Part shown: one piece after another, positions 179 through 5,313 of the stretch
Numbering within the stretch: position 1 is the first letter of the stretch
How the letters are laid out: each line of letters starts with the position of its first letter
Origin: an uncultured delta proteobacterium
GTDB taxonomy: Bacteria; RBG-13-61-14; DRUE01
Direction: 5' to 3'
Assembly: GCA_903930515.1 (NCBI GenBank)
Contig: CAIYYW010000096.1
Location: forward strand, 1 to 5,313
DNA: 5,313 nt
The notes under the pieces: model-generated
Told to the model about the DNA's origin: nothing
Seen by the model: the letters and a program-made list of their open reading frames with translations, nothing else
The model's database searches: none
Program-made: the position numbers and the translations under genes

Positions 179-304
179 TCACTTGGCAACGGCTAACCCT
201 TTTTCAATGAGTTCTACGGTCTTTGGGACCAGCTTGGGAACCGCAAAACTGGCGCAATGGAAGCTGGAATTATCATGCCAATCGCTCCCGCATTTTTTTT
301 CTCA
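179..304 (-). other. In-frame continuation beyond the TGA of the small exported gene
   Basis: Read in phase with the 60-codon gene, the bases after TGA (302-304) give 40 sense codons and then TGA at 179-181. The translation begins EKKCGSDWHDNSSFHCASF and ends in an amphipathic segment containing KTVELIEKGLAVAK. With the TGA as residue 61, the protein would be 101 residues with Cys at about 32, 64 and 76, and residue 61 would pair with Cys64 as U/C-x2-C. Both other frames are interrupted sooner (TGA or TAG). TGA is also the genuine stop of the GMC gene next door, so it is not reassigned to Trp across the genome. A weak stem-loop follows (259-288 on this strand: GGAGC/GCUUCC around UGG/CCA, 10-nt loop about 24 nt after UGA). 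Its distance is compatible with a bacterial SECIS element, but the upper stem is poor. A nonsense mutation explains the data equally well. Confidence 0.4.
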
Positions 305-484
305 GGCATAAGAAGCCGTGCCCCATTTTGCTTCCGAGCTGTAAGGCCGTTCATCCCCGGTGGCGATCTTGAAAGCATGAGCGGCGCAGATGGTCTGGTC
401 CGGCGGGATTTCCGCCCGGGCAGAAAGGCCGGATATAAATAGCGCGGTCAAAAATACCAGAAAAAGAAAACGATTGCTCTTCAT
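302..484 (-). CDS. Small exported protein of unknown function; frame continues past its TGA
   Basis: I do not recognise the family. The 60 residues open with a clear Sec signal peptide: Lys/Arg at 3-5 (KSNR), a hydrophobic core at about 6-18, and a likely cut after ARA (residue 24). The mature part is short and polar, with one Cys at about residue 32 in ICAAH. That is not a heme-binding CxxCH. The start is supported by a GAGGAGG Shine-Dalgarno at 492-498, 7 bases upstream. The gene starts 25 bases after the GMC gene's stop, so it is probably the last gene of that operon. The odd point is the end: the 60-codon frame stops at TGA (302-304), but the same frame stays open for 40 more coding-like codons to a second TGA at 179-181. 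The gene could be a complete short protein, a nonsense-truncated pseudogene, or a selenoprotein of 101 residues. Signal peptide and ribosome site are seen; the function is unknown. Confidence 0.6.
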   Translation of the reverse strand: MKSNRFLFLVFLTALFISGLSARAEIPPDQTICAAHAFKIATGDERPYSSEAKWGTASYA

Positions 485-509: not shown

Positions 510-2471
510 TCATTGGAAATATTTTCCCCGGTTCTCTTTCAGGTATTCGGCCAGATAAGTTGAATAGGCCATGATGGATAATTGCGGATTCACTCCGAGC
601 GAGGTGGGGAAGATGCCGGCGTCGGAGATGAACAGGTTTTTGACCTCGTGGCTTTCCAGGTTGCGGTTGACCACGGCTTGGGCAGGGTTGTCTCCCATGC
701 GGCAGGACCCCATGGGATGGAAGGCCATGTATTCAATGTCGGTCTTTCTGACATTTTTTTCGGTGAGCAGGCTCATCTGGTCCTTGGAGTTTATCACCGG
801 ATATGGGGCCACCCCGGTATAGACCTCTTTGGCGCCGGCCGCGAACATCACCTCAATGGCCAGCTTGAGGCCCTTGAGGGTCTTGAGGAAATCCTCATGG
901 TTGATGAAATAGGTGATCAAGGGCCTTCCGCCCGCGGACCGGACCCGCCCCTCGGAGGAATCCGAGACGAGTAGTCCGAGGTTGACGATATTCTTGAAGC
1001 GGGACATGAGTTCTTTTTGCTTGAGCCCGAAGAAGGGCAAAGAAGCCGCGGCCACCGCGGGCGCCAGTCCGGTGGCCTCAAGCATGATCCCTTCCTTTTG
1101 ATAGGTGTCAATGTAATAGCTCTGCATGATCCCCTTCCACTGCTCGATCTCCTCGTCAAACAGGGCGGAGACCCGGGCGCAGGGGTGAATGCGGAGATGC
1201 CTGCCGACCTGGCCGTTCCGGTTGGCGATATGGTTTCGGAGCAGCAGCGCCGGCGAGAACACGGCGCCGCAAGCCACGATCACGATTTTGGATTTGACCG
1301 TGAAGGGAATTTTGGGCTTGCCGGTCTCGCGGTCAAGGACCACGCCGCTCACTCCGACGGCCCGGCCGTTTTCATGCAGGATTTTATCCACCCGGCATCC
1401 GGCAAAGACCTTGGCGCCGGCCTTGATTGCCAGCGGGATGTAGGTCTTGTCCATTGACTGTTTGGAACCCTCGGGACAGCCGTAATTGCAGGAGCCGCAC
1501 CCGCCGCAGCCGCGGACATTTCTGAGCAGGGGACCGTGGCTCAAGCCGAGCGCCTCGGCGCCCCGCTTGGTGACCAGGGCGTTCTTTCCGATCACGGCCA
1601 TATCTCCGGGCAGGACATTGATGATCTTCTCTACCCGCTCGTAATAGGGAGCGATGGTTTTGATGCTCAGGCCCTTGAGGTAATAATCTTCCGCCCATTC
1701 GGCCAGCACTTCCGCGGGCGCCCGGAAGCAGGTGCCGGAATTGATGGTGGTGGTCCCGCCGATGCCCTTGCCGACCGAGAGCGGCACGATCGGGGACCCG
1801 AGCGTGAAGACCATGCTGTTGTTGCGGTAGTAGAGCGGTAAGGAGTCAATGGGCTTGCGGTGGAAATCCTCGGTGGCATAGTAAGCCCCTTCCTCCAGCA
1901 CAAGGGTCTTGAAGCCGGACTCGGCCAGCTCCTTGGCCGCGACCGCGCCGCCCGCGCCCGAGCCGATCACGCACACATCAAATTCCTGTTTCAACTCGGA
2001 GCCGATGTCCTCAAATTCCCTGATCGCGGGGTCCCTCGTTTTCAGACCGGCTTCCGGCCGGCAGGGCGACTCATACTTGATGTTTTTCTCAATCAGGTCA
2101 TCCGAATAAAGAAGTATCCCGACCAGGGCCTTGATCGCGGTGAACACCCCCCGGATGCTGTAGTTGCGGCTGTTTTCCCATTTTTCCATATAGCGGACCC
2201 GGTCCTCCGGCGACAATCCTTTCAGGGTCCTGGGCTTGAAAATGAAAAACAGGGGAAGATAGTTCAGCGCGGAGAACATGAACTTGAACCCGAACAGGGT
2301 GAGCGGGTCAAAGCCCTTGGCTAACCGGTTGAACAAGCCCTCCAGGTCCAGGTCCCGAGCCCCGGTTTCAAACGGTCCGCCCGGGGGCATGAAGGTTTCG
2401 GCCACCGTCTTCAACATCTCCTGATACCTCGGGCTCAGATACACCGCTTGCTTTTCACTCCCGGAATTCAT
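510..2471 (-). CDS. GMC-family FAD-dependent alcohol oxidoreductase (long-chain alcohol oxidase/dehydrogenase type)
   Basis: This 653-residue flavoprotein probably oxidises an alcohol using FAD. An N-terminal helical region (about 1-150) has two hydrophobic stretches, near 57-78 and 106-122, as in membrane-associated fatty alcohol oxidases. The Rossmann FAD motif GSGAGG is at 170-175 after a beta-strand (FDVCVI), with the ribose-binding acid at E193/E194 (VLEEG). GGTTTINSG (238-246) is the GMC signature region. A cysteine cluster at 322-332 (C-x2-C-x2-C-x3-CP) precedes KQS. Near the C-terminus, H585 (FHPMGSCRMG) and N628 (GVNPQLSIMA) match the GMC catalytic His/Asn pair. There is no signal peptide, so it probably acts on the cytoplasmic face of the membrane or in the cytoplasm. 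An AAGGAG site at 2478-2483 lies 6 bases before the ATG. It sits 75 bases after the CocE-like gene and 25 before the small exported gene. Family is certain. The substrate (long-chain alcohol, sterol or sugar) and the electron acceptor are inference; the cysteine cluster favours a dehydrogenase. Confidence 0.93.
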   Translation of the reverse strand: MNSGSEKQAVYLSPRYQEMLKTVAETFMPPGGPFETGARDLDLEGLFNRLAKGFDPLTLFGFKFMFSALNYLPLFFIFKPRTLKGLSPEDRVRYMEKWENSRNYSIRGVFTAIKALVGILLYSDDLIEKNIKYESPCRPEAGLKTRDPAIREFEDIGSELKQEFDVCVIGSGAGGAVAAKELAESGFKTLVLEEGAYYATEDFHRKPIDSLPLYYRNNSMVFTLGSPIVPLSVGKGIGGTTTINSGTCFRAPAEVLAEWAEDYYLKGLSIKTIAPYYERVEKIINVLPGDMAVIGKNALVTKRGAEALGLSHGPLLRNVRGCGGCGSCNYGCPEGSKQSMDKTYIPLAIKAGAKVFAGCRVDKILHENGRAVGVSGVVLDRETGKPKIPFTVKSKIVIVACGAVFSPALLLRNHIANRNGQVGRHLRIHPCARVSALFDEEIEQWKGIMQSYYIDTYQKEGIMLEATGLAPAVAAASLPFFGLKQKELMSRFKNIVNLGLLVSDSSEGRVRSAGGRPLITYFINHEDFLKTLKGLKLAIEVMFAAGAKEVYTGVAPYPVINSKDQMSLLTEKNVRKTDIEYMAFHPMGSCRMGDNPAQAVVNRNLESHEVKNLFISDAGIFPTSLGVNPQLSIMAYSTYLAEYLKENRGKYFQ

Positions 2472-2546: not shown

Positions 2547-4409
2547 CTATTTTGCCGGGATCACCGGAAGGATGATCCGGCTGGGGTGTTTTTCATCGTG
2601 ATACACGGTCTGGTAAGCGGTCTTCTTGCAGTCTTTCCCGCCCTCGCCGGCGCAGTTGGAATTGCGGTCAAAGCGGGGGAAGTTGGAGCTGGAAATCTGG
2701 ACTCTGATTTTTTCCCCGGGCTGAAAAGCGTAGCTGGTGGCCCAGAGGTCTATCTGATACTCATAAACCTTTCCCGCCGTGATCGGGCTTGGATCGTCAT
2801 ATCCGTCGCGGTACCGGGCGCGGACGGCTCCATCGGCCAGGTTCATTGAGCTTCCGTCCATTTTCACCACGCAGAGCTTGGCCGTGAAGTCGGTGTCGCG
2901 CTCGCTGGAGCCGGCAAACAGAACCACCTTGAGCGGGCCGGTTATTTCCATCTCTTCCTTAACCGGAGCGGAAGTGTAGATCAAAACATCCGGGCGTTTT
3001 TCATTGGGGGCCTGATCCTCCATCCCCTCCTGCTCCAGCAGGTTGTTCCCGCCCAAAGTCGGCACCGGGTCTTTCGGATCGTATTTGAACTCGTCGGTGG
3101 ACTCAATCTGGGCCGGCTTGTCCGCAGAGATCCAGCCGTCTCCCATAATGGTGTTGGCCTTGCCCTTGCCGTGAAAATAATAATCAGTGTATTTGGTCCG
3201 GGCCAGCGGCCATTCATTCTCGTCCCGCCAGACATTCTTGCCCATCAGATAAATCCGGACCGGGGGCATGCTCTCCACCTTATTCTTCTCGCCCTTGATC
3301 CAGTAATCAAACCAGTCAACCATAAACATATCCTTGAACATCGCCAGCGATTTGCCCTCCTTGCTCAGGTCCTTGCTCCCCAGCGCGCCGTGCGCCCAAG
3401 GCCCGACAATCAATCTCGTGCCGCTTCTCGCCGGCTCCGGCGCGGTCTTTTTCATCAGCATAAAATCCTCCAGCTGGCCTCTGAGGAAAATGTCATACCA
3501 ACCCGAGACCATCATTGCCGGGGCTTTGACATTTTCGTAGCGGTCAAAATAATTGAAAACCTTGGAGTGATACGCGAACCCGGGATAGGCGAATAGATCA
3601 ATCATTTTCTTCGTCGCATCCGGATAGGGCTTATTGGGCGCGTCCGCCGGGGCCAGCCCCATTGTTACCGCGAGCTCCTCAATGTCCATTTTCCCGAGCT
3701 CCTCAAAGCTATTTTTGAAATCAGGCTTCATCGGCATATTGAAGAATCCCTCTTCCGGTCCGACCCCTTTTTTGCCCAGGTCCAAAAGGGTGGTCAGCTC
3801 GCTGCCCTGATTCCCTTTCCCGACCCCGGCGCTCCAGCCCGTTGCCAGCCGGTAATGGAACGCCCCGCCGTCAAAAAGCGCCTTATACATACTCGGGGTG
3901 GTGATCAGGGGATAAAACGCCTTCAGATATTGATCGTCGTCCGCGATCACCCATTGGGTGTATCCGAAATAACTGCCGCCCCAGGCCCCCAGTTTTCCGT
4001 TGAACCAGGGTTGCTCCGAAATCCATTTCACCGTGTCCCTTCCGTCGTCCTGGTCATTGACAAACGGGATGAAGACCTCGCCTTCGGAATTGAAAGTCGC
4101 CCGGCAGTCCTGGATCACAAAAATATAACCGCGCTGCGCGAACAGTCGGCCCGCGTTCCCGGTCAGGTTCTTGCCATAAGGAAGCCGGCACAAGATCACC
4201 GGATATTTGCCCTCGGTCTTGGGCTTGTAAATGTCGGTGGCCAGCTTGATCCCGTCCCGCGCCGTGATCATCACATCCTTGACCACCACCACCTGGTCCT
4301 GCACCGGACCCAGGCCCAATGCCTTGCCCACTATCCGAGAGCAGGAATTCGCCAGCAGAAAAATCATCCCCGCGGCCAATACCAACGATACCCTTATCCG
4401 TCTCTCCAT
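2547..4409 (-). CDS. CocE/NonD-family alpha/beta hydrolase (S15 X-Pro dipeptidyl-peptidase-like), exported, probable lipoprotein
   Basis: This 620-residue serine hydrolase cleaves ester or amide bonds; relatives include cocaine esterase, alpha-amino-acid ester hydrolases and S15 X-Pro peptidases. Residues 1-23 form a signal sequence (RRIR, then a hydrophobic core) ending in LLANSC. Cys23 may be lipidated, although N at -2 is unusual for a lipobox. The alpha/beta hydrolase core begins at about 43. Y78 in RLPYGK corresponds to the oxyanion Tyr of CocE, and VIQDCRATFNSEGE (about 98-111) is the family signature. The nucleophile is S146 in GGSYFG, the acid D306 in SGWYD and the base H340 in GPWAHG. 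A helical cap lies at about 170-290. The C-terminal jelly-roll domain (about 480-620) includes YEYQIDLWAT and ISSSNFPRFDRN. C586 and C594 could form a disulfide, which fits export. GAGGAGG at 4417-4423 sits 7 bases before the ATG. It is the first gene of the cluster. The natural substrate cannot be read from the sequence. Confidence 0.92.
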   Translation of the reverse strand: MERRIRVSLVLAAGMIFLLANSCSRIVGKALGLGPVQDQVVVVKDVMITARDGIKLATDIYKPKTEGKYPVILCRLPYGKNLTGNAGRLFAQRGYIFVIQDCRATFNSEGEVFIPFVNDQDDGRDTVKWISEQPWFNGKLGAWGGSYFGYTQWVIADDDQYLKAFYPLITTPSMYKALFDGGAFHYRLATGWSAGVGKGNQGSELTTLLDLGKKGVGPEEGFFNMPMKPDFKNSFEELGKMDIEELAVTMGLAPADAPNKPYPDATKKMIDLFAYPGFAYHSKVFNYFDRYENVKAPAMMVSGWYDIFLRGQLEDFMLMKKTAPEPARSGTRLIVGPWAHGALGSKDLSKEGKSLAMFKDMFMVDWFDYWIKGEKNKVESMPPVRIYLMGKNVWRDENEWPLARTKYTDYYFHGKGKANTIMGDGWISADKPAQIESTDEFKYDPKDPVPTLGGNNLLEQEGMEDQAPNEKRPDVLIYTSAPVKEEMEITGPLKVVLFAGSSERDTDFTAKLCVVKMDGSSMNLADGAVRARYRDGYDDPSPITAGKVYEYQIDLWATSYAFQPGEKIRVQISSSNFPRFDRNSNCAGEGGKDCKKTAYQTVYHDEKHPSRIILPVIPAK

Positions 4410-4972: not shown

Positions 4973-4994
4973 ATTTAAGGAGGAAACCTTAAAT
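4973..4994 (+). promoter_or_regulatory. Hairpin enclosing the Shine-Dalgarno and start codon of the WD40 gene
   Basis: ATTTAAGG (4973-4980) and CCTTAAAT (4987-4994) are perfect 8-bp complements around the 6-base loop AGGAAA. The Shine-Dalgarno AAGGAGG (4977-4983) lies half in the 5' strand of the stem and half in the loop, and the first two bases of the ATG (4993-4994) are in the 3' strand. The stem is mostly A-U with two G-C pairs, so it would be only marginally stable. It could damp translation or melt with temperature; no function is shown. Confidence 0.5.
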
Positions 4995-5313
4995 GAACAA
5001 GAAATTTAATTGCGCTGTGATTTTGGCATTGATCATTTTGTCATTATTGATTCCTGCTCTACGAGTTTCTGCTAATGATTCCAAACTGAGCCTGTTATGG
5101 AGAAAAGGGGATATCACATCCCTTGAAGTATCTCATCGCGGGGAGATATTATCTATGGCCTTCAGCCCGGACGGGAAAATTCTGGCCACTGCCGGAAACG
5201 ATAAGATGGTCAAATTATGGGGAACAGCTGACGGCAGCTTGCTGAAGAATTTTTCCGGGCACAAGTCGCCGATATTCTCCATTGCCTTTAGTCCGGACGG
5301 AAAAGTTCTGGCC
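4993..5313 (+). CDS. Exported WD40-repeat protein, 5' end only
   Basis: The first 107 codons are present and the gene continues past the right edge. The ATG is preceded by a full AAGGAGG Shine-Dalgarno at 4977-4983, 9 bases away. Residues 1-27 form a Sec signal peptide: NKK, a long Ile/Leu core, and a likely cut after VSA. After a linker, WD40 repeats begin: residues 52-65 (ILSMAFSPDGKILA) recur at 94-107 as IFSIAFSPDGKVLA, a spacing of 42 residues typical of beta-propeller blades. The first blade ends in VKLW (73-76), then SGH starts the next. Such propellers are protein-interaction scaffolds, so an enzymatic role is not implied. Its location would be periplasmic or extracellular. Codon use (TTA, ATT, AAA) is more AT-rich than in the minus-strand genes. 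It diverges from the CocE-like gene and has its own promoter. The number of blades and any extra domain lie outside the window. Confidence 0.88.
   Translation, partial: MNKKFNCAVILALIILSLLIPALRVSANDSKLSLLWRKGDITSLEVSHRGEILSMAFSPDGKILATAGNDKMVKLWGTADGSLLKNFSGHKSPIFSIAFSPDGKVLA
5158..5313 (+). repeat. Tandem WD40 coding repeat units
   Basis: The 30-base blocks at 5158-5187 and 5284-5313 differ at only 4 positions and are offset by 126 bases, exactly 42 codons. They encode AFSPDGK-type blade starts. The close nucleotide match suggests fairly recent blade duplication or ongoing homogenisation. Confidence 0.7.

Follow-up and report, generated by a model that had tools for sequence, protein, structure and literature searches.

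The window, namely the whole stretch of DNA analysed here, is an entire 5313-bp contig. It carries a small gene whose frame runs into a TGA approximately 302 bp from the contig end, and the question is whether this codon is read as selenocysteine, marks the true end of the gene, or is an ordinary stop arising from mutation or sequence error. The frame from the ATG at 484 reaches the TGA after 60 codons and then remains open for 40 sense codons up to a second TGA, the extended frame covering 484..179 on the minus strand (Table 1). These observations confirm what the earlier note had described, including the A8 run located directly past the TGA. The gene has a good ribosome-binding site, with a Shine-Dalgarno-like GAGGAGG upstream of the ATG, and its product has a signal-peptide-like N-terminus. 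We propose that the TGA is probably a nonsense mutation, or a sequencing or assembly error, which interrupts the gene of a small exported protein of ~101 residues.

Table 1. Coordinates of the small gene, its in-frame TGA and the adjacent oxidoreductase gene in the window.
Feature	Coordinates	Strand	Remark
60-codon ORF up to the in-frame TGA; N-terminus resembling a signal peptide (MKSNRFLFLVFLTALFISGLSARA)	302..484	-	GAGGAGG before ATG
In-frame TGA, position 61 of the extended frame	302..304	-	
Coding-like stretch of 40 sense codons past the TGA, frame unchanged (EKKCGSDWHDNSSFHCASFAVPKLVPKTVELIEKGLAVAK)	182..301	-	codon score 0.15 bits/codon
Second TGA, closing the extended frame	179..181	-	
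A8 homopolymer immediately past the TGA	293..300	-	
Gene of a 653-aa GMC oxidoreductase, immediately upstream of the small gene	510..2471	-	GMC_oxred_N and GMC_oxred_C; ordinary TGA stop

To see whether the sequence past the TGA is coding, we used codon frequencies trained on 63 long ORFs from the same genome. The score of the 40 codons past the TGA compares with 0.08 bits/codon for the first 60 codons of the gene and with 0.35 ± 0.20 bits/codon for known genes of this genome, while the other two forward frames past the TGA are both negative (-0.19 and -0.39 bits/codon). The opening over 40 codons is not rare in itself, being found in 10% of base-composition shuffles, but the codon score is reached by only 0.05% of the open shuffles. 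Since 23% of the stop-free antisense stretches of genes also match this score, the test is supportive, not proof. The coding-like codons lie in the same frame as the first 60, and it can therefore be concluded that the interrupted small gene probably once had ~101 codons. This agrees with the earlier impression that the 40 codons look like protein. A frameshift at the A8 run was ruled out, as a coding signal past the TGA is confined to the frame in line with the first 60 codons. The chief rival of an interrupted gene is a true protein of 60 residues: the gene would end at the TGA, encoding a precursor of 60 residues with a mature part of ~36 residues, and the 40 open codons would be due to chance. 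Such a protein is possible, and it is consistent with the share of shuffles that are open over this length (~10%) and with the lack of a far-side homologue in the collections searched. However, a far-side score above 99.95% of the open shuffles, with no other frame scoring as high, is hardly expected from chance, and we regard this alternative as rather unlikely.

The earlier note had envisaged a small exported selenoprotein linked to a GMC flavoenzyme, in which the TGA would encode selenocysteine. The coding-like sequence past the TGA would fit such a protein, as would the use of selenocysteine by another genome of the same phylum (G002). However, of the sel genes, which the earlier note had suggested looking for, neither SelA, SelB, SelD nor tRNA-Sec was detected in the genome of the window, which is 93.5% complete. 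The search gave no SelA. For SelB, the best match scored 106 bits, below the cut-off of 242, and corresponds, as judged from its sequence, to an 894-aa IF-2; for SelD, the best match (67 bits, cut-off 125) is a 348-aa ORF that looks like a ThiL-like thiamine-monophosphate kinase. The tRNA-Sec search returned 13 matches, all sub-threshold, the best of which is a tRNA-Ser(TGA). Typing against ordinary tRNAs covered the eight best of the 13, and these eight are all ordinary ARAGORN-predicted tRNAs (tRNA-Ser, -Leu, -Arg, -Glu, -Lys and -Gly). In the congener G001 (87% complete), SelA, SelB and SelD were likewise all without a match over the cut-off.

As a positive control, the same searches recovered a complete sel set in G002, the third genome of the phylum, which demonstrates that they can detect sel genes within the phylum. 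In contig C7 of G002, selD (12752-13675), selA (14055-15143) and selB (15234-17138) follow one another, with tRNA-Sec shortly after, and the selD gene carries an in-frame TGA too, within the motif SG-U-AAK. This selD(TGA)-selA-selB-tRNA-Sec cluster of an order-level relative (L082, G002:C7:5000-24000) is of interest in its own right: selA, selB and selD were found in neither genome of the window's genus and are present in G002, a distribution suggesting patchy use of selenocysteine in the phylum. The clustering also means that a single assembly gap could hide all four genes in a genome that is 93.5% complete. The chance of this is roughly comparable to the 6.5% of the genome that is missing, and is lowered by the absence of the genes from G001. 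It is highly improbable, in our estimation, that the sel cluster was lost in assembly gaps and that the locus encodes an exported selenoprotein that is new, restricted to this lineage and paired with a GMC flavoenzyme.

The local sequence around the TGA does not favour selenocysteine either. The next Cys is at position 65, in the order U61-E-K-K-C65, and the three residues between TGA and Cys, one more than counted in the earlier note, make this UxxxC rather than UxxC, which is not the spacing of a CxxC-type redox pair. Among hairpins 8-60 nt past the TGA, the best has a stability of -9.1 kcal/mol, which is equalled or bettered at 48% of random sites of the window, and the fold z-scores of the proposed stem-loop range from -1.15 to +0.27. 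The stem-loop had been described as weak and a poor SECIS match; its stability is not significant, being at chance level. Stability alone is a weak SECIS test, because the hairpin past the TGA of the G002 selD, taken as a control, is also unexceptional (22% of random sites). An Rfam scan of the window gave nothing of note.

No homologue of the small-gene product, with which position 61 could be compared as the earlier note proposed, was found in any collection. There was no relative in the three genomes of the phylum and about 95 more distant ones, the weak matches among these 98 genomes (E 0.016 or worse per genome) being at chance level. The searches of 84,980 GTDB genomes, of IMG/VR and plasmids, and of Pfam, NCBIfam and PDB sequences were also negative. 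At the DNA level, a search of the congener for this region returned GMC paralogues only. The congener carries a GMC gene start that is 92% identical, but its contig stops within the GMC gene, before the orthologous site.

The locus resembles bacterial selenoproteins, such as the selenocysteine-containing SelD of G002, in having an in-frame TGA followed by coding-like sequence. It differs from them in that no sel genes, no notable SECIS-like structure and no Cys homologues were found, and the proposed selenoprotein is accordingly left without support; we consider that selenocysteine at this TGA is very unlikely. A true selenoprotein here would represent a new family; on present evidence, the locus illustrates how a lone in-frame TGA can have the genome context against it. 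Genome-wide reassignment of TGA to a sense codon, for which the in-frame TGA itself is the one argument, is refuted by stop usage and deserves practically no credence: TGA is the commonest stop of the long ORFs of this genome, ending 28 of 63, and it also ends the adjacent GMC gene.

An ordinary nonsense codon or sequence error is favoured over a selenoprotein because the searches of this genome detected no machinery for selenocysteine. It is the most likely reading since the window is a whole contig, with the TGA near its end and the A8 run after it. We hypothesise that a small exported protein of ~101 residues would be cotranscribed with the GMC oxidoreductase, as suggested by the 25-base spacing and the shared strand, and that the premature TGA at codon 61 would be read as a stop. 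This TGA may stem from a nonsense mutation that the sampled strain acquired recently, or from a sequencing or assembly error near the contig end. We infer that the product is exported and that its full-length form is lost. The fresh nonsense pseudogene suggested in the earlier note is in keeping with the coding signal past the TGA, although a real stop and a sequence error are not distinguishable on the assembled sequence. A single stop, an intact frame after it, a homopolymer beside it and a close contig end are traits that the locus shares with genes broken by a nonsense codon and with assembly errors in fragmentary drafts, a likeness drawn here from the assembled sequence. One argument against this explanation is that the putative continuation past codon 60 is deduced from the composition of 40 codons without a homologue.

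The neighbouring genes present some features of their own. The GMC oxidoreductase has ~140 extra N-terminal residues, whose relatives are encoded by ORFs of their own lying upstream of the GMC domain, in G002 (C60:41332-41709, a 158-aa ORF) and next to paralogues of the same genome (C323 and C236), a configuration that points to gene fusion or fission. Upstream of the GMC gene, 2547-4409 (-) encodes a CocE/NonD-type hydrolase (Peptidase_S15 and PepX_C), and 4993-5313 (+) holds the first part of a WD40-repeat protein, probably secreted, which the contig end truncates.
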